From: Methanosarcina barkeri str. Wiesmoor
Lineage (GTDB): Archaea; Halobacteriota; Methanosarcinia; Methanosarcinales; Methanosarcinaceae
DNA: 64,000 nucleotides
Direction: 5' to 3'
NCBI RefSeq assembly: GCF_000969985.1
Contig: NZ_CP009526.1
Coordinates: 3,100,001 to 3,164,000, forward strand
Positions 24,246 to 41,919 of the stretch are shown here, piece after piece; positions within the stretch are counted from its first letter, which is position 1; each line of letters starts with the position of its first letter. The notes below the pieces were generated by a model. The model was not told the origin of the DNA. It searched no databases and saw only the letters and a program-made list of their open reading frames with translations. The position numbers and the translations under genes are program-made.

Positions 24246-24854
24246 ATGACTGTAAAAATTGCAGTGCTGGTTTCTGGAAGGGGTTCGAATCTCCAGGCGA
24301 TTATGGACAGCATTGAAAAGGGTTACATAAAGAATGCTACAATTAATGTGGTTATTTCCAACAAGGCAAATGCATACGCGCTCGAACGTGCAAGAAATCA
24401 CGGAATAGACGCGGTTTTCCTTGATCCGGGCGAGTATGGCCGGGATGAATACGATAAAGCTATCCTGAATGTCTTGAGCCAGTATGATACGGACCTTCTT
24501 TTGCTTGCAGGCTACTTCCGGATTTTAGGAAATGAGATTATTAAAGCCTACAGGAACAGGATTATGAACATCCATCCTTCTCTTCTTCCGGCCTTCAAAG
24601 GACTTCACGCTCAGAAGCAGGCTTTCGAATACGGGGTAAAAGTTGCAGGTTGTACAGTACATTTTGTTGATGAAGGGCTGGACTCAGGGCCAATAATCAT
24701 CCAAAAATGCGTGCCTGTGCTCGCTGGGGACACGGAAGAAACCCTTACTGCCAGAATTCTGGAGCAGGAACACATTATCTACCCTGAAGCAGTCAGGCTT
24801 TTTACCGAGGGCAAACTTAAAATTGAGGGTAGAAATGTAGTAACCGGGATTTGA
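24246..24854 (+). CDS. purN: Phosphoribosylglycinamide formyltransferase (10-formyl-H4F dependent)
   Basis: Transfers the formyl group of 10-formyl-tetrahydrofolate to GAR, the third step of purine synthesis. The 202-residue protein has the N-terminal GAR phosphate loop VLVSGRGSNLQAI and the catalytic set of Asn, His and Asp in RIMNIHPSLLPAFKGLHAQK and HFVDEGLDSGPII. It is the first gene of the H4F cluster. Methanogens usually use the formate-dependent PurT or PurP routes, so PurN fits an organism that really makes H4F. Confidence 0.95.
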   Translation: MTVKIAVLVSGRGSNLQAIMDSIEKGYIKNATINVVISNKANAYALERARNHGIDAVFLDPGEYGRDEYDKAILNVLSQYDTDLLLLAGYFRILGNEIIKAYRNRIMNIHPSLLPAFKGLHAQKQAFEYGVKVAGCTVHFVDEGLDSGPIIIQKCVPVLAGDTEETLTARILEQEHIIYPEAVRLFTEGKLKIEGRNVVTGI

Positions 24855-25266
24855 GTAAACGCTTAAGATCATGTAAAACCGGAATAGATTTTACTGATTA
24901 ATAACTTCTTTAATCCCTGATAGTTATAAATATTCCAAACTTATAGGTATTCCACGAAACGATATAGGCCACAAGGGCTTGTCAGGTTTCGAAATTTCCT
25001 ATCTTCAAGATACTCAGGAGCTTTTTGCCGAAAGTTTTGAAACTCCAGAATGAAAAACCCCATCAGGAAGGTTATAGAGCCTGTTCGATTACACTCCTCA
25101 TTACTTAGTGATTCTATCGCTGAACGCCGACCTCTTGAGTAACTTTCCAATCTGGAAGGCAGTTCCTGTATACATGCACATGTTAACATTAATCAACCCA
25201 TCAATCCAAGCTATAAAGACTCTTGATTTTAAAAAATTTTAAAGGAATAGGTTACAGGTGACAGTA
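24855..25266. other. Spacer upstream of glyA, possibly a long leader
   Basis: Two TATA-like sites are visible: AGTTATAAATATTCC near 24919-24933 and GCTATAAAGAC near 25208-25218. The region between them is more GC-balanced than the usual spacers here and is open on the minus strand for 82 codons (24941-25189), with no recognisable protein and no ribosome-binding site. If the distal promoter is used, glyA would have a leader of about 300 bases. Confidence 0.35.
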
Positions 25267-26505
25267 ATGTCTTACATTGAAAAAACTGATCCGGAATTGT
25301 TCGAGGCTATAAAAAAAGAAGCCGAGCGCCAGGAATATAAACTGAACCTTATCGCATCTGAAAATTATGCGAGTAAAGCCGTAATGGAAGCTCAGGGATC
25401 GATTCTGACCAATAAATATGCCGAAGGATATTCCGGCAAGCGGTACTATGGTGGCTGCGACTTCGTGGACATTGCCGAGGATCTCGCGATTGCCAGGGCA
25501 AAGAAAATCTTTAACGCAGGCTACGTCAACGTCCAGCCTCACTCTGGTTCTGGGGCTAATATGGCTGTCTATTTCTCGGTTTTGAAGCCAGGAGACACCA
25601 TCATGTCCATGGATCTCTCTCACGGCGGTCATCTTTCTCACGGCAGCCCTGTGAGTTTTTCCGGAAAGCTCTTTAATATTGTGCCTTACGGGGTCAGTAA
25701 AAAGACTGAGATGCTGGACTATTCCGAACTTATGAAAAAAGCAAAGGAAAACAAACCGCAAATGATTGTTTGTGGAGCTTCAGCTTATCCTCGTGAAATC
25801 GATTTCAAGCAATTCCGCGAAATTGCTGATGAGGTAGGAGCCTATCTGCTTGCAGACATTGCCCACATTGCAGGTCTTGTAGTTGCAGGTGTGCACCCGA
25901 GTCCAGTACCTTATGCGGACTTCGTTACCAGCACAACCCACAAAACTCTCCGAGGCCCAAGAGGCGGAATTATTATCTCCAAGACAGAAGAACTTGCGAC
26001 CAGAATTAACAAAGCGGTTTTCCCCGGCCTTCAGGGTGGGCCTCTCATGCACATTATAGCCGGAAAGGCAGTAGCCTTTAAAGAAGCCATGAGTGAAAAG
26101 TTCAAACAGGATCAGGTTCAGACCGTAAAGAACGCAAAAACTCTCTGCAAATGCCTGAAAGAGAAAGGTTTTGATATGGTATCTGGCGACACGGATAATC
26201 ATCTTATGCTTGTCAATCTCAACAATATGAATATAACAGGCAAGGATGCAGAAGCCGCCCTGAGCAAAGCCGGGATTATTGCAAACAAAAACACGGTGCC
26301 TTTTGAGACACGCAGTCCATTTATCACAAGCGGTGTAAGGCTCGGAACCCCTGCCTGTACCACGAGGGGTATGAAGGAAACAGAAATGGAATTAATTGCC
26401 GACTATATTGAGACCGCAATCACAAACTCAGAAAACGATAAGATCCTGTCGGAAACAAGTGACAAGGTCAGAGAACTCTGTTCAAGGTTCCCTGTTTATT
26501 GTTAA
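25267..26505 (+). CDS. glyA: Serine hydroxymethyltransferase
   Basis: PLP enzyme that interconverts serine plus H4F with glycine plus methylene-H4F. The PLP lysine is in the [12 protein letters not shown] motif (about residue 226), with the N-terminal [11 protein letters not shown] and [14 protein letters not shown] motifs and [12 protein letters not shown] intact. From the ATG at 25267 the protein has 412 residues, the usual Methanosarcina length, with CAGGTGAC five bases upstream; an in-frame GTG nine bases earlier overlaps the ribosome-binding site. GlyA from M. barkeri has been shown experimentally to be H4F-specific. Confidence 0.96.
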
Positions 26506-26529: not shown

Positions 26530-27393
26530 ATGTTAGATGAAGGGTATGAATCACGAATTATAGATGGGAAAGTTCTTGCAAAGAAAATTGAAGATGAAGT
26601 GAGGTCTGGAGTTGAAGCCCTTGTAAGTGGCCGGGGAATTACGCCTGGACTTGCTACTGTCCTTGTTGGCGACGACCCTGCTTCCAAAATGTATGTCCGC
26701 CTGAAGCACAGAGCCTGTGAACGTGTGGGCATTCAGGCAGAAGACCACTTTCTTCCGGCAGAAACCAGTCAGGAGGAACTTATCTCCCTGATCAATACCC
26801 TTAACAAAGACCAGAATGTGCATGGAATTCTGCTTCAGCTCCCGCTTCCGAAACATCTCTTCCCTCAGGAAGCAATGGAAGCAATAGCTCCTGAGAAAGA
26901 TGCGGATGGCTTTCACCCCTACAATATGGGAAAGCTAATGATCGGTGATGAAGGGCTTGTTCCATGTACTCCACATGGAGTTATCCGGGCGCTTGAAGAA
27001 TATAATGTGCCTGTAAAAGGCAAAAACGTGGTTATTGTCGGGCATAGCAATGTTGTCGGAAAACCATTGGCAGCAATGTTCCTTAACCGGAATGCAACAG
27101 TCTCGGTTTGTCATGTATTTACAGATGACCTTAAGAAATACACTCTTGACGCAGATATTCTGGTGGTTGCAACTGGAGTCAAACACCTTATCAAAGCTGA
27201 CATGGTAAAGGAAGGCGCAGTAATCTTTGACGTGGGTATTACCAAGGAAAAAGATGGCGTATACGGAGATGTAGACTTCGAAAACGTGATCAAAAAAGCA
27301 GCCCTAATCACTCCTGTTCCTGGCGGCGTAGGCCCTCTGACAGTTGCCATGCTTATGAAGCACGTACTTGGATGTGCAGAAACGAATTATTGA
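26530..27393 (+). CDS. folD: Bifunctional methylene-H4F dehydrogenase / methenyl-H4F cyclohydrolase
   Basis: Interconverts methylene-, methenyl- and 10-formyl-H4F, linking GlyA to PurN. The 287-residue protein has the FolD signatures: [20 protein letters not shown] with the catalytic Tyr and nearby Lys in Y-V-R-L-K, the [13 protein letters not shown] stretch, [13 protein letters not shown], the NAD(P)-binding [15 protein letters not shown] and the C-terminal [16 protein letters not shown]. It starts 24 bases after glyA and is probably cotranscribed. FolD from M. barkeri has been shown to use H4F. Confidence 0.96.
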
Positions 27394-27440: not shown

Positions 27441-28545
27441 GATCTTTGTTTTTGATGGCACTTTTGTTTTCTGGCACTGTTTCTAGTGCATCGATTCTCA
27501 AATAAATACAATAATAAGATAGAATTTACGCACTTGAAGAACAAAATCAATTACGTCAAAAATTGTGGATTAAAGCCACATTTCAGACAGTTAAAATATT
27601 GTTGATTTTTCAGTTCAACTGCGTAAGTCCTATAAGAAAATAATTACAGCATATGACGCAAATATTATTTTAAAGTCACATCGAATTCTGTAACCGGAAA
27701 ACACAGCTATTCGCAGAGTGATTCAATCTGGATATTGCAACCACGGAAACTACGGAAAGCATGGAAGAACCGCGACTTTAATACTTATTTCCGTGTCTTT
27801 CGTGTCTTCCGTGCTTTCCGTGGTTTTCAAAAAATTCATTTTTGATATACTTTGGAATCAATGCATTCGGTTTGGTAAAAATCATTTACTCTAGGATAAG
27901 AAAAGTTGTATTCCCAATTGTGCCATATCAGGAAAATCAACCTTATTTTCTCTAGTTTGCCAGTTTACAATACAAGTAGTTGTTTTTAAAGACAATATCT
28001 TAATTAACGTACAATTCGCTTTCCTAATTGTATCAGATCAATTCTACACATCAATATTTTTATGTATTATTGAAGCTTATAATATTGCGATAACGTTTAC
28101 TGCAACTAATATTTGAAATAATTATTGAGTTTAAATTTATAATTTCATAATTATATAGTGCTCGGTCGGCAAAATGAGGCCTACAGCAAGGCTTGAAACC
28201 TGCTTTAACGCATCTTAAACATGCCTTAAGCATTATACATGATAAAGTCAGTTTTATATGTATTAATTAATATATGATTATAGTAATTATTTATCCAATC
28301 CTGATAATAATCGATAAATAAACTCCCCCCATCTGGAAGCCTCTGCGGACGGAATAGAAAGATTTTTTACGGAATGTAGTAAAAACGAAATAAACTATAT
28401 TTTCGCGATTTAAAGGCATATCGTTGGAATCTCCGATAGCGAGAAAGCTCTGTAAAGCGGCTTCCCTAAGTACCTGTTTACCGATGTCTATTAAGCGTCA
28501 GCTAGCGTTATTTAAATTGAAACTTATAGAGTCTGGTTGTCAAAA
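27441..28545. other. 1.1-kb non-coding spacer before the DHPS-like gene
   Basis: AT-rich region with no sustained reading frame. It holds an imperfect inverted repeat at 27738-27833. The last ~200 bases (28340-28545) are more mixed in composition, with a GCTAGC palindrome near 28500, and may be the leader of the DHPS-like gene. No known riboswitch pattern was seen. Confidence 0.4.
27738..27833. repeat. Imperfect inverted repeat around ACCACGGAAA
   Basis: ACCACGGAAACTACGGAAAG on the left mirrors CTTCCGTGCTTTCCGTGGT on the right, with internal TTCCGTGTCTTTCGTGTC copies. The two arms are built from repeated CACGGAAAG/CACGAAAGA motifs, giving a long cruciform-like structure with no ORF. Confidence 0.65.
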
Positions 28546-29772
28546 ATGGTTGTTGATACTGAAATTTGCGGTATAAAAATAGGAGATCGATACCCTGCGC
28601 ATGTAATGGGTATTATTAACTTTAGTCCTGAGTCTTTTTACGGAAATTCGGTCGTAAGTCCGGATTCTGCGCTTGAGACAGCTCAAAAAATGGTTGAGGA
28701 AGGAGCAACCTTTCTGGATTTTGGAGCCCGTTCAACCTGGTTACATGCCAAGCCCATTAGCAGGAAACAGGAACTTGAACGTATTTTGCCAGTGCTTGAA
28801 GCACTGGAAGGCAATGTGGATGCTGTGATTTCCGTGGATACAATGTTTTCTGAAATCGCAGAAGAAGCTCTCAAAATGGGAGCTGATATCATAAATGATG
28901 TTTCCGGTTTTACAGCAGATCCCAGAATGATTGAAGTAGTGGCAGATTACGGATGTCCTGCTGTTGTCATGGCCTCAAATAAAGTACCAGGTGATCCTCT
29001 TGGGATGGACGCCATTATCGAATCTCTTGATTCTATCATACAGGCCGCTGAAGCAGGTGGCATAAATCCAGAAAAACTCATACTTGACCCTGCATCCGGC
29101 AGGTGGATCGAAGAAAAACTTCCCATCTATGACTTTGAAACCCTTGACGATTTTGAACGCCTTAAAATTTTTGAAAAGCCTTTGTTAGCAGCTCTCTCAA
29201 GAAAATCTTTCATAGGAGATGTACTCGGAAAACCTGCAACTGAAAGGCTTTATGGCAGCCTGGCTGCAGCAGCTATTGCAGTCTACAAAGGTGCCCATAT
29301 TATCCGTACGCATGATGTACCTGAGACCGCTGATGTTGTAAAGCTTTCAGGAGCTATAAGGAGTAGGCCAAGTATAGTAAAAGAGGGCAGGTATGAGGTC
29401 TCTGTGGTCGAGGTAAAGACACCACAGGATGCAGCAATTGCAATGCGGAAACTTGGGGTTACTACGACAGGCTCAAAGGTAATGCAGAATAAAAGTATCC
29501 ATCTTATGCTGAAAATTCGTAATCTTACGACCACAGAAGCTTTGATAGTAAAACAGGAAATACTTGCCCGAGGAGGGGATGCAGCCCTGACAAGAAATGC
29601 AGTTTCTCACGAAACGGAGATGACTGATGTGCTTGTAATGGGCACTCTGCTTCAGCTTGGACGTCTTGCCAGGAAACTTGAAGGACAGGCGCGTTCCCTT
29701 CCACTTATTGCCGAAATGATCCGCGAATGTATTGCAGAGCGTAGCGATCTGGAATATCGATATTTGAGGTAG
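28546..29772 (+). CDS. Dihydropteroate synthase-like protein with C-terminal accessory domain
   Basis: 408 residues. The N-terminal about 270 residues are a DHPS-type TIM barrel: HVMGIINFSPESFYGNS, ATFLDFGARSTWLHAKPIS, DAVISVDTMFSEIAEEALKM, DIINDVSGFTADPRMIEVVA, LILDPASGRWIEEK, LLAALSRKSFIGDVLG and IIRTHDVPETADVVK. All pterin-site acidic and basic residues appear present. The C-terminal about 130 residues carry GGDAALTRNAVS and TDVLVMGTLLQLGRLARKL, a domain I know from the N-terminus of some bacterial FolP proteins. It would join p-aminobenzoate to the pterin for H4F. The ATG at 28546 is favoured over a TTG at 28537. Two bases separate its stop from metV. Confidence 0.75.
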   Translation: MVVDTEICGIKIGDRYPAHVMGIINFSPESFYGNSVVSPDSALETAQKMVEEGATFLDFGARSTWLHAKPISRKQELERILPVLEALEGNVDAVISVDTMFSEIAEEALKMGADIINDVSGFTADPRMIEVVADYGCPAVVMASNKVPGDPLGMDAIIESLDSIIQAAEAGGINPEKLILDPASGRWIEEKLPIYDFETLDDFERLKIFEKPLLAALSRKSFIGDVLGKPATERLYGSLAAAAIAVYKGAHIIRTHDVPETADVVKLSGAIRSRPSIVKEGRYEVSVVEVKTPQDAAIAMRKLGVTTTGSKVMQNKSIHLMLKIRNLTTTEALIVKQEILARGGDAALTRNAVSHETEMTDVLVMGTLLQLGRLARKLEGQARSLPLIAEMIRECIAERSDLEYRYLR

Positions 29773-29774
29773 TT

Positions 29775-30389
29775 ATGATTATAACTTCAGCAAAACCCCT
29801 TGAGGAAATCCTGAACTTGTTACAGGACGAAGATGACATATTTATTATCGGATGCAATGTCTGCGCTGCAAAACTGAAGACCGGTGGAGAACCCGAAGTG
29901 CTTGAGATGATCAGACAGCTTGAGAAAAACGGAAAGCATATAGTAGGTTGGGCTCTCCCCACAGCAGCCTGCAGTGTCCGGTCTTTTGACTCCCTGGTTC
30001 AAAAGAATGAAAAAATAACTGAGGCACGCTGTATTCTGGTTATGGGCTGCGGTAGTGGAGTTTCAACAGTTGCCAGTGTAACGGAAGTTCCTGTGTTCGG
30101 CTCAAATGATACGCTTTCTCTGGGAGGTTCAAGCGAAGGCAAGCTGCTTTTAGACCAGTGTAAAATGTGTGGAAAATGCACAATTGGTGAATTCGGAGGA
30201 ATCTGTCCCAAATCACGGTGCCCAAAAGGACTTCTAAACGGGCCCTGTGGGGGAGCTATTGACGGGATGTGTGAAGTCAACAGAGAGAACGATTGTGTAT
30301 GGACTTTGATTTATAATAGGTTGAAAAAAATCAATAGACTTGATCTCCTTTACACAGTTCATGCCCCTCAGGAGCATAGAGTTGACTAA
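29775..30389 (+). CDS. metV: Methylene-H4F reductase C-terminal domain protein (MetV-like)
   Basis: 204 residues. The N-terminal half (EDDIFIIGCNVCAAKLKTGG...GWALPTAACSVRS) and the cysteine-rich C-terminal half (CKMCGKCTIGEFGGICPKSR, CPKGLLNGPCGGAIDGMCEV) match the MTHFR C-terminal domain of acetogens, called MetV. It binds iron-sulphur or zinc and partners MetF. It overlaps almost directly with the DHPS-like gene (two bases between stop and start), so the two are cotranscribed. Methylene-H4F would be reduced to methyl-H4F by the MetFV pair. Confidence 0.85.
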   Translation: MIITSAKPLEEILNLLQDEDDIFIIGCNVCAAKLKTGGEPEVLEMIRQLEKNGKHIVGWALPTAACSVRSFDSLVQKNEKITEARCILVMGCGSGVSTVASVTEVPVFGSNDTLSLGGSSEGKLLLDQCKMCGKCTIGEFGGICPKSRCPKGLLNGPCGGAIDGMCEVNRENDCVWTLIYNRLKKINRLDLLYTVHAPQEHRVD

Positions 30390-30654: not shown

Positions 30655-31533
30655 ATGCTCTTTAATTTTCGTGAAAAACTGAATTCCAGCAAATTTCTGG
30701 TTACTGCTGAAGTCTCCCCCCCTAAGGGCACAAAATTCTCAGTTTCCCTCGAAGATGTTCGCCAGCTCAAAGGCATTGCAGATGCTATAAACGTTACGGA
30801 CAACCAGTGCTCAATTATGCACATGAGCTCCCTGGCTTTTAGCAAACTTCTGCTTGATGCGGGGCACGAGCCTATTATGCAGCTTACCTGCCGGGACAGA
30901 AACAGGATAGGACTTCAGTCCGATCTTCTTGGAGCGTATGCTCTAGGTATCCGGAACATCTGTGTGATGACAGGAGATTTTCCTTCGTGTGGAGATCACC
31001 CAGGTTCAAAACCTGTATATGATCTTGATTCCGTACAGCTCCTGCAACTTGTCCGGAAACTTGACTCAGGCATTAATTTTACAGGAAACAGGCTGGACGG
31101 AGGGACCTCTTTCTGTGCAGGTGCGGTTTCTGGCATAGACCCCGAAAAACCTTTGCAACTCATAAAACTTGAAAAGAAAGTCAGGTGCGGAGCTGACTTT
31201 ATCCAGACTCAGGCGGTCTATGATGTGGGCATGTTTGAAGAATTTATGGAAGCTATAAGCCACATTGAAGTGCCTGTAATTGCAGGCCTGATTCCTCTAA
31301 AATCTTTAGGCATGGCTGAATTCATGAACAGGAATATTTCGGGGGTTCATGTACCTGAAGAAATCATGCTTCGTATAAAAGATGCACCTGATCCTGTCGA
31401 AGAAGGTCTTTCAATAGCTTCAGAGACTATAAAGGAGATTACGAAACTCTCAAGAGGGGTCCATATTATGCCTGTAGGCTCTCATAAAAATACCGCAAGA
31501 CTGCTTTCTATGGCAGGAATTTCCGGGAAATAA
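30655..31533 (+). CDS. metF: Methylenetetrahydrofolate reductase
   Basis: 292-residue TIM-barrel flavoprotein that reduces methylene-H4F to methyl-H4F. Visible signatures: LVTAEVSPPKGTKFSV (the catalytic Glu region), ADAINVTDNQCSIMHMSS, PIMQLTCRDRNRIGLQSDLL, NICVMTGDFPSCGDHPGSKP, and GADFIQTQAVYDVGMFEEFM. The methyl-H4F could feed methionine synthesis. The C-terminal extension of animal enzymes is absent, as in bacterial MetF. It is separated from metV by about 265 bases, with its own promoter. Confidence 0.92.
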   Translation: MLFNFREKLNSSKFLVTAEVSPPKGTKFSVSLEDVRQLKGIADAINVTDNQCSIMHMSSLAFSKLLLDAGHEPIMQLTCRDRNRIGLQSDLLGAYALGIRNICVMTGDFPSCGDHPGSKPVYDLDSVQLLQLVRKLDSGINFTGNRLDGGTSFCAGAVSGIDPEKPLQLIKLEKKVRCGADFIQTQAVYDVGMFEEFMEAISHIEVPVIAGLIPLKSLGMAEFMNRNISGVHVPEEIMLRIKDAPDPVEEGLSIASETIKEITKLSRGVHIMPVGSHKNTARLLSMAGISGK

Positions 31534-31812: not shown

Positions 31813-32622
31813 ATGAGTTCAGAAAACACTTCCATCCAGATATTTGGGATTAAGACCCCTATTATAAAGGAAGGGGATGATATCGTACAGATTCTAGATA
31901 AGGCTCTGGAGGAAGCAGGGCTTGTCCCTATTGATGGGGATATTTTCGTACTTGCAGAATCTGCAGTTGGCACTGCGGAAAGAAGAGTCGTCAAGCTTGC
32001 AAGCGTGACTCCCGGTGAAAGGGCAAAGATGCTTGGGGAACAGTATGGGATTGACCCCAGGGAAATGGAACTCGTGCTTCAGGAATGCGATGAGATTTTT
32101 GGAGGCGTGCCCGGAGCTGCTCTTACAATTACAAAAGGTGTCCTGGCTCCAAATGCAGGGATCGACGCTTCAAATGTCCCTGAAGGCTATGTAATCCTGC
32201 TTCCGGAAGACCCGCGAAAAAGTTCCGAGATTATCCGGTACAGGCTTGAGCAACGTTACTCATGCAGGCTAGGGGTAATTATAGGAGACAGCAGGACCCA
32301 GCCTCTCAGGCTTGGTTGCTCGGGAATTGCGCTTGGAGTATCAGGCTTTGTACCTGTGGAAGATGCGCGTGGAACTGACGATATCTACGGGAAACCTCTC
32401 CGTATTACATACAAAGCTGTAGCAGATAACCTTGTCTCGGCTGCCGAACTCCTTATGGGAGAAGCCGGGGAAAGAGTGCCATGTGTGCTTATCCGTGGTG
32501 CTCCTGTAAGCATGATAAATGAGTCGCCTGATATGCCAACGATCTCAATGGAAGGCTGTATGTATTTCGGCAACATAATCAAAGGTCGGCCTGAGAATAA
32601 AAACTGCAAGAGAGATGTATAA
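31813..32622 (+). CDS. CofE-family ligase; possible folate glutamate ligase (FolC2)
   Basis: 269 residues of the COG1478 family (F420-0:gamma-glutamyl ligase). Shared stretches: IFGIKTPIIKEGDDIVQILD, NAGIDASNVPEGYVILLPED, RLGVIIGDSRTQPLRLGCSG, IALGVSGFVPVEDARGTDDI and SAAELLMGEAGERVPCVLIRG. The loop DSRTQPLRLG differs from the usual TDTxGRxxRxG of CofE, which points to another substrate. A COG1478 protein has been shown to replace FolC in Chlamydia (FolC2). Given its place at the end of the H4F cluster, glutamylation of dihydropteroate is the best guess, but plain CofE activity cannot be excluded. An AACTTATAAAG box lies just upstream. Confidence 0.8.
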   Translation: MSSENTSIQIFGIKTPIIKEGDDIVQILDKALEEAGLVPIDGDIFVLAESAVGTAERRVVKLASVTPGERAKMLGEQYGIDPREMELVLQECDEIFGGVPGAALTITKGVLAPNAGIDASNVPEGYVILLPEDPRKSSEIIRYRLEQRYSCRLGVIIGDSRTQPLRLGCSGIALGVSGFVPVEDARGTDDIYGKPLRITYKAVADNLVSAAELLMGEAGERVPCVLIRGAPVSMINESPDMPTISMEGCMYFGNIIKGRPENKNCKRDV

Positions 32623-39327: not shown

Positions 39328-41919
39328 TTAGTATTTCTGTCTTTTCCTTTTGAAAAAAAGGTTAATTGCTTCGTTGAAATCAACTCCACATCCCGCCACG
39401 CTGGGTTTCAACATAATAACTTTATTTAATTTTCTAAATAAAGTTTCCTCATTATCAGACTCATCAGCTATTTTCTTTAAAAATTTAAAGATCTCCTCAA
39501 GTTTTTCGTCTTCGTTATTCTTCTTCAGAATGTTAAGGATTTCTTTTAACAATTCTTCTTGTTTACTCAAGTTGTTGACTGTTCCAAGCAAATCACTCAC
39601 ACGATATTTCTTTTTTGATCCTTCAGGTACAAATAAATCAATGCCCATTTCTTCCAGATTAACTAAGTGTTCGTAACTTACAGCTATCTCGGATTCATCA
39701 GGAAGGGGAATTTTCTCGATAGCTTTTAACTTTTCAAAACTCCGGTTAATTTCCCGCAAATTGAATAGTATACTTGAAAAATAGTCTCGTTTCTGACATC
39801 CATTTACATTAATATAAATTCTCTTTGCCTCGTTATCAGATTTTATCACAGCACAGGAATTAAATTGTTTGTTTTCGAGAACTACACCTGTTCTCCACTG
39901 CAAATCATCTTTTATATCCCTGTGCATCTTCACTATAAAACGAGGCATAATTGAACGTGGAAGAAAATCGTATTCAATGAAAAACTTCAGAGCTTCATTA
40001 GAATCAAAATCAAAATTTGGTTCTGGAACTGCTAGCAGGTCAGGAAGGAGCACAGTTTCTTCGTCGATTGAATAACATAATTCGAATTTTTTCATCAAAT
40101 TGATGATGTAACCATAACGTTCAGGAGGATAATAGTAGTCGCCTTCTTTCTTCTGCTCTAAAATTTCATCTAGCATACTGAATCGAAGAACTCCCTTCTT
40201 CTTAGCTAGAATCTCCGAATTTATGATCTTATAAACGCCTTCAGTAATCCACTTCGGTTCAAGCACATGTGTATCGAGCAATGAGATATCTTTAAAATGT
40301 ACAATTACTCCAAGATCATTGAGAAAATCAACAAGCGTGTTTTGAGATGACTTATCACCCACATTTTCTTCCAGACATATATTTCGATATTCTTCATAAG
40401 TAATAAAATTGCAACTCATTTTTTCTAATTTTGTCTTTACCTCGAACCAGCTTTTAGCCCATTCTATCTGCATATGTTCAACTTTTAAAAGTTCTTTTTT
40501 TAATTTTTGGGAAAATCCTTCAATTCCTCGATCCTCCTTACAAGAAATTCTGAAGAAACCTTTTATTGAGGGGTATTTCTCCTGCAAAAACTTCCTATTC
40601 AACTCAAAAGAGGGATTTTCATCAATCTTGTTCAAGGCGACCAGTACTGGAGAATCTCCTCCAAAACTCCTTATGTGCTTGAGCCAGTACTCGGCTTTTT
40701 CATCCCTTCTAGAATCCAGAACAAGAATGTAAAGGCTTCTTTTGGAAAGGAAAAATTGATGAGTAGCATGCATTATTTCCTGTCCACCAAAATCCCAAAA
40801 ATTAACTTTTATTTCCTTATCTTTGTCTTTAAATCCCCACTTTTTGATATTAATCCCTTGAGTCTGATGTTCATTTCCATCAAAACCTTCGCCTAAGAGC
40901 CTCTTTAACAGTGAGGTTTTTCCTGCCTCTCCATCTCCTACAAGCAAAACTTTAACTTCATTTAACGGTTTCTTTTCACCTTCCAATGACTTGAAATAAT
41001 TGATAACTGCCTCACGACCCTGTTTTACAATCTCTATTGGAGGCTTTTCAAGAGGATTTCCTTCTAAGAATATTCCTTTTTCTGCCGAATTATTTCCCCA
41101 CTCAATATCTATACCTAATTTTAAAATTTCTGGCGGCAGCGAAGTCAATTTATTAGAACTTATGTCAAGTTGAGTAAGATTTTTGAGTTCTGTGATTTCC
41201 AGCGGCAACGACGTCAATTGATTTCTAGAAATGTCAAGTTGAGTAAGGCTTTCTAAATTGGCGATTTCAGAAGGCAATGAAGTCAGTTGATTTCCAGATA
41301 TGGAAAGTTGAGTAAGAGATTTCAGCTCTGATATTTCATGAGGTAGCGAAGTCAATTGATTCTCATAGATGTTAATTTGAGTAAGAGATTTCAACTCTAA
41401 TATTTCAGGAGGTAACGACGTTAGTTGATTTCTAGAGATGGAAAGTTGTTTAAGGTTTTTCAACTTTGATATTTCAGGAGGTAACGACGTCAGTTGATTT
41501 TTAGAGATAGAAAGTTGAGTAAGATCTTTTAACTCAGTAATCCCAGAAGGTAGCGAAGTCAGTTGATTTTCAGATATATCAAGTTGCTTAAGATTTTTCA
41601 ACTTTGATATTCCAGGAGGTAACGAAGTCAATTGATTATTACGTATGTTGAGTTGAGTAAGATTTTTCAATTTTGAAATATCAGGGGGTAGTGAAGTCAA
41701 TTGATTGTAAGATATATCAAGTTGCTTAAGATTTTTCAATTCTGAGATTTCAGGTGGCAATGAAGTCAGTTGATTGTAAGATATGTAAAGCTTTGTAAAA
41801 TTTTTCAGCTCTGAGATTTCAGGTGGCAATGAAGTAAGATTTTTGTAAGACAAGCGTAATGCAGTTACTTTATTTCGTTGAGCCCTTCTTATTAGATCCG
41901 TAGTCTTGTTTGATTCCAT
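39328..41919 (-). CDS. Roco protein: leucine-rich repeats, Roc GTPase and COR domains
   Basis: 863 residues. Residues about 20-300 are a dozen 23-residue LRR units (consensus LTQLDISxNQLTSLPPEISELKN). The Roc GTPase follows: Walker A KVLLVGDGEAGKTSLLKRLL, switch II VNFWDFGGQEIMHATHQFF, and NKID as the guanine-specificity motif. The COR dimerisation domain (about residues 500-760) contains PPERYGYIINLMKKF and PRFIVKMHRD. A helical tail ends the protein. Roco proteins, relatives of LRRK2, dimerise through COR and hydrolyse GTP; M. barkeri Roco proteins have been studied as models. The cellular role in archaea is unknown. No kinase domain. Confidence 0.93.
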   Translation of the reverse strand: MESNKTTDLIRRAQRNKVTALRLSYKNLTSLPPEISELKNFTKLYISYNQLTSLPPEISELKNLKQLDISYNQLTSLPPDISKLKNLTQLNIRNNQLTSLPPGISKLKNLKQLDISENQLTSLPSGITELKDLTQLSISKNQLTSLPPEISKLKNLKQLSISRNQLTSLPPEILELKSLTQINIYENQLTSLPHEISELKSLTQLSISGNQLTSLPSEIANLESLTQLDISRNQLTSLPLEITELKNLTQLDISSNKLTSLPPEILKLGIDIEWGNNSAEKGIFLEGNPLEKPPIEIVKQGREAVINYFKSLEGEKKPLNEVKVLLVGDGEAGKTSLLKRLLGEGFDGNEHQTQGINIKKWGFKDKDKEIKVNFWDFGGQEIMHATHQFFLSKRSLYILVLDSRRDEKAEYWLKHIRSFGGDSPVLVALNKIDENPSFELNRKFLQEKYPSIKGFFRISCKEDRGIEGFSQKLKKELLKVEHMQIEWAKSWFEVKTKLEKMSCNFITYEEYRNICLEENVGDKSSQNTLVDFLNDLGVIVHFKDISLLDTHVLEPKWITEGVYKIINSEILAKKKGVLRFSMLDEILEQKKEGDYYYPPERYGYIINLMKKFELCYSIDEETVLLPDLLAVPEPNFDFDSNEALKFFIEYDFLPRSIMPRFIVKMHRDIKDDLQWRTGVVLENKQFNSCAVIKSDNEAKRIYINVNGCQKRDYFSSILFNLREINRSFEKLKAIEKIPLPDESEIAVSYEHLVNLEEMGIDLFVPEGSKKKYRVSDLLGTVNNLSKQEELLKEILNILKKNNEDEKLEEIFKFLKKIADESDNEETLFRKLNKVIMLKPSVAGCGVDFNEAINLFFKRKRQKY

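Follow-up and report, generated by a model that had tools for sequence, protein, structure and literature searches.

A CofE-family paralogue at the end of the H4F gene cluster of Methanosarcina barkeri as a candidate archaeal dihydrofolate synthase

The H4F cluster and its last gene

In the 64,000-nucleotide stretch of Methanosarcina barkeri str. Wiesmoor analysed here (the window), a run of genes on the forward strand encodes enzymes that make or use H4F. The run starts with purN, encoding the 10-formyl-H4F-dependent GAR formyltransferase (24246–24854), followed by glyA, encoding serine hydroxymethyltransferase (25258–26505), and folD, encoding methylene-H4F dehydrogenase/cyclohydrolase (26530–27393), all assigned by profile matches. 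The gene folP (28537–29772) encodes dihydropteroate synthase (TIGR01496, 223 bits; cut-off 163), which makes the proposed substrate of the enzyme considered below. It is followed by a metV-like gene of the MTHFR C-terminal family (29775–30389; PF12225) and by metF of the methylene-H4F reductase family (30655–31533; PF02219). As the first-pass annotation had stated, the cluster is closed on the same strand by a paralogue of the COG1478/PF01996 family (31813–32622), a putative dihydrofolate synthase of the FolC2 type of glutamate ligase. This reading frame is intact, running from an ATG start to a TAA stop over 269 aa, and Methanosarcina sp. encodes a 91% identical protein at locus L104. Approximately 280 nt separate metF from the paralogue downstream, so that the gene is linked to the cluster without overlapping it.

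The cluster itself has been reported for Methanosarcinaceae and for several groups of ANME archaea, in which H4F serves biosynthesis (PMC9012536, citing Buchenau and Thauer 2004); the CofE-like gene goes unmentioned in that published description. The absence of a FolC-type gene from the cluster, also remarked upon in the first-pass annotation, extends to the whole genome, in which no TIGR01499 match was found. A search with PF08245 for a hidden FolC of the Mur-ligase family found none, since the only protein of this family matched in the genome is the F430 synthase CfbE, which scores 430 bits with NF033197.

Two further features of the window are recorded here. The FolP protein carries a C-terminal extension of approximately 130 aa past the DHPS domain, which is common to Methanosarcinia, Methanocellales and some Asgard archaea and absent in Methanomicrobiales. 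On the reverse strand (39328–41919), an 863-aa reading frame appears, by eye, to combine leucine-rich repeats with a following Roc-like GTPase-looking domain.

Relation to CofE in profile, fold and residues

The window protein belongs to the CofE family, in agreement with the first-pass annotation: PF01996 (F420_ligase) matches over the whole domain, positions 1–218 of 218, with 249 bits against a cut-off of 25, as in CofE itself, and it is the sole Pfam match, with no Mur-ligase domain present. On the two CofE equivalogs, the window protein scores 193 bits with TIGR01916, just over the cut-off of 181, and 191 bits with NF009809, under the cut-off of 274. TIGR01916 alone would therefore name it CofE, by an excess of 12 bits. 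However, the canonical CofE of the same genome reaches 335 and 365 bits on these models; its gene lies at G000:C2:156765-157394, about 3 Mb off in contig coordinates, and its product is 35% identical to the window protein. The window protein is thus not the CofE of this genome, and the objection that it might be the only one, which the first-pass annotation had raised against its own proposal, falls away because the canonical gene lies elsewhere.

The AF2 model of the window protein (pLDDT 91) has the CofE fold. In a Foldseek search, the top five PDB matches are all CofE chains and nothing else is convincing; the likeness to CofE of Archaeoglobus fulgidus (AF_2256; PDB 2PHN, 2G9I and 7ULD-7ULF) gives an E value of 4e-26 and a TM score of about 0.8.

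Comparison of 41 orthologues of the paralogue with 21 CofE proteins reveals 32 positions common to at least 90% of both groups, and the core held in common includes D109, N112, D150, D196 and E208, among others (A. fulgidus numbering). The differences concentrate elsewhere. In the A. fulgidus structures, F92, G153-C155 and R234 of the partner subunit surround the F420 chromophore (PMC10861534). The loop that the first-pass annotation had read as DSRTQPLRLG is present at residues 159–168 (nt 32287–32316, forward strand) and replaces the D[ST]xGRxFRxG of CofE with the DSRTxPLRxG of the paralogues (the DSR type). As judged from the alignment, this difference is in the chromophore site, since the loop aligns with D150-G159 of the A. 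fulgidus enzyme, within which G153-C155 lies on the F420 isoalloxazine. The pair G153-R154 occurs in 21 of 21 CofE proteins and in 0 of 41 orthologues, all 41 of which carry R directly before the G153 position, and the equivalent of F92 is G in 37 of 41. Two of the three CofE chromophore-contact sites are thereby replaced; at the third, R234, the alignment is uncertain, and the orthologues there carry an E-C-(M/L)-Y motif in place of the C-terminal motif of CofE. This pattern indicates a retained catalytic frame around a rebuilt chromophore site, and the rebuilt site might hold the pterin or the pABA group.

The orthologues also form a clade apart from CofE. In a tree of 62 Halobacteriota proteins, the two groups are split by one branch with 100/100 support, and in an unrooted archaea-wide tree, built with no outgroup from 51 DSR-type and 38 GR-type proteins, one branch separates them with an SH-aLRT of 100. 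The same split persists with an SH-aLRT of 99 after removal of the signature columns, which rules out the clade as an artefact of those columns.

Occurrence with FolP and FolC, and gene neighbours

Among 130 Methanosarcinia genomes, FolP is found in 127, the paralogue in nearly all and FolC in none. Across the Halobacteriota, FolP occurs in 151 of 237 genomes. The paralogue is present and FolC absent in 101 of these, the reverse holds for 45, five have neither, and the two proteins never occur together; by family, FolC is found in eight, the paralogue in about fifteen and both in none. The co-occurrence counts are not phylogenetically independent, and the Fisher p value computed from them takes no account of kinship and does not give a probability of chance. 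Halobacteriota in which FolP is missing mostly hold a CofE-type match alone; 84 genomes have none of the three proteins, and two draft genomes, G225 and G259, have the paralogue, which in G225 lies within a glyA–folD run with no recognisable folP. ANME-2c is a lineage reported to lack FolP. The paralogue was called at 175 bits or more, with the addition of one partial copy adjoining folP in G019; a 172-bit match in G241 was excluded, its loop DSHGRAFRDG being that of CofE.

Three of the five FolP-only genomes belong to one Archaeoglobi genus, the others being G301 and G309. In two of the three Archaeoglobi, which were inspected, folP stands beside a gene of the RFAP-synthase family (TIGR00144, over cut-off), an arrangement that points to a possible use of this FolP in methanopterin synthesis. 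The two genes are arranged head to head at both loci (L075:4494-6285 and L076:2718-4522).

Outside the Halobacteriota, 38 genomes were examined by way of named loci. FolP is present in 31 of them; the archaea among the 38 gave no FolC match, and the sole FolC is that of the bacterium Thermoflexus, whose CofE-family protein is of the GR type. The Asgard archaeon Harpocratesius, assembled as a single 4.36-Mb contig, holds one COG1478 gene, of the DSR type and 27 nt after folP, and gave no FolC match and no CofD match. Two Verstraetearchaeota (L127:2995-3753, forward strand, and L135) have a DSR-type protein and no FolP, FolC or CofD match; there, the protein may lengthen salvaged folate, or may do something else. 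In Thaumarchaeota, two COG1478 genes are present in 13 of 14 genomes, the Nitrosocosmicus draft showing one, and the idea that the DSR type is the only CofE of this lineage was accordingly rejected for those 13.

The neighbour of the paralogue in many lineages is folP. Among the 101 Halobacteriota genomes with FolP and the paralogue, 55 encode the latter on the strand of folP and no more than 1 kb from the FolP core. The gap is 4–38 nt in Methanomicrobiales and Archaeoglobi, and a larger gap in Methanotrichaceae and Methanocellales corresponds to the C-terminal extension of FolP itself. The order in Methanomicrobiales is glyA–folD–folP–paralogue, and folP is likewise a neighbour in Methanocellales and in Hermod-, Odin-, Baldr-, Loki- and Hadesarchaea (lineage names in part inferred), the order relative to folP varying among lineages.

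Two other arrangements were observed in related genomes. In Methanosarcinales outside Methanosarcina, a ThiC-family protein (TIGR00190, 414–445 bits, just under the cut-off of 460) is encoded beside the folC2-type gene (L049:5200-6465 and L041:5665-6909, forward strand; L042:6782-8113 and L038:6844-8262, reverse strand) and in three of these four loci lies between that gene and metF; it is absent from the window, and that it supplies a p-aminobenzoate-like precursor is speculation. Meanwhile, in Methanotrichaceae (L033:7015-8178, forward strand; L034:6715-7866, reverse strand), the proposed folate ligase is fused to a complete C-terminal cytidine deaminase domain (TIGR01354, 134 bits in L033, over cut-off), a fusion that ties folate to thymidylate precursor supply.

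Proposed reaction, alternatives and meaning

The window protein is very probably an archaeal dihydrofolate synthase in the role of FolC2, as the first-pass annotation had suggested. The proposal is strengthened, at the level of sequence comparison, by the complementary distribution with FolC, by the adjacency to folP, by the loss of F420-contact residues while the common core is kept, and by the occurrence of the DSR type in genomes that gave no CofD match. We infer the following reaction. FolP would join p-aminobenzoate and 6-hydroxymethyl-dihydropterin diphosphate to dihydropteroate, the benzoate carboxylate of which the window protein would activate to an acyl phosphate at the expense of a nucleoside triphosphate, which would be GTP if the analogy with CofE holds. 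Glutamate held in the conserved glutamate pocket of the family would then attack the acyl phosphate to yield dihydrofolate, and the enzyme may add further gamma-glutamates. Against this assignment stand the five FolP-positive genomes with neither enzyme, the DSR type in Verstraetearchaeota and two drafts that show no FolP, and the score over the TIGR01916 cut-off.

That cut-off, together with the common family, would also suit a second F420 gamma-glutamyl ligase, extending the F420 tail after the canonical CofE has added the first glutamates; F420 tails have 4–5 glutamates in methanogens with cytochromes and are long in Methanosarcina-type methanogens (PMC8498797). Nevertheless, the paralogue follows FolP in genomes with no FolC rather than F420, its ring contacts F92 and G153-R154 are replaced, and its presence in three genomes with no CofD match argues against an F420 role, so that we regard such a function as very improbable. 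Other glutamylated C1 carriers exist in Methanosarcina, and a member of the family adapted to one of them, such as methanofuran or a methanopterin, could place gamma-glutamates there instead of on folate. This would leave the company of folP and H4F-using genes, the mutual exclusion with FolC among FolP carriers and the occurrence in non-methanogens (Thaumarchaeota and Asgard archaea) to be accounted for, and it is given equally little credence.

Slightly less improbable, though still unlikely, is an action at another point of the folate pathway, either the formation of p-aminobenzoyl-glutamate before FolP or only the FPGS step, for example on salvaged folate. The Verstraetearchaeota with a DSR-type protein and no FolP, the variable gene order relative to folP and the attachment of several glutamates by CofE itself (PMC10861534) all fit such a function. 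However, an enzyme confined to the FPGS step would leave the dihydrofolate synthase step of all these archaea with no enzyme, because FolC is absent.

The kind of enzyme envisaged in the dihydrofolate synthase assignment is already known, since a COG1478 protein in the role of FolC, as invoked in the first-pass annotation, has been reported from Chlamydia, the protein CT611 being able to complement a folC mutant of E. coli (PMC1971073). Similar to the archaeal paralogue, the chlamydial FolC2 is a COG1478 protein encoded in a folate-gene cluster of genomes with no FolC (PMC1971073), whereas the hosts of the paralogue are archaeal and mostly have a canonical CofE as well. The nearest model, TIGR04132, has a cut-off of 350, and the archaeal proteins score 105–131 bits, the window protein 118; by HMM score, the latter is not of the TIGR04132 type. 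FolC, of the Mur-ligase family (TIGR01499), has the same proposed role and the same place beside FolP, with which it is encoded in one reading frame in FolC-bearing genomes of the haloarchaeal type. Its family is, however, unrelated to that of the paralogue, and no genome tested has both FolC and the archaeal FolC2 type. A description of the archaeal clade, its signature or its breadth was not found in the searchable literature, outside which most subscription papers lie, and the annotation models and literature searched assign no enzyme to the glutamate step in folate-making archaea with no FolC.

It is an evenly balanced question whether the DSR clade supplies the dihydrofolate synthase of archaea in general and split from CofE before the lineages that carry it diverged (methanogens, Asgard archaea, Thaumarchaeota, Hadesarchaea and some Archaeoglobi), with the bacterial-type FolC of haloarchaea as a later replacement. 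If so, the folate and F420 roles in this family would be of roughly equal age, given so early a split.

The likely enzyme of the glutamate step carries an F420 label, and correcting that label would complete folate synthesis for methanogens, ammonia oxidisers and Asgard archaea. The sequence signature would tell folate ligases from F420 ligases, and relabelling would remove a false marker of F420 synthesis, for example in Harpocratesius. Furthermore, the paralogue and CofE would constitute a matched pair of enzymes in which to study the change of cofactor within one fold.
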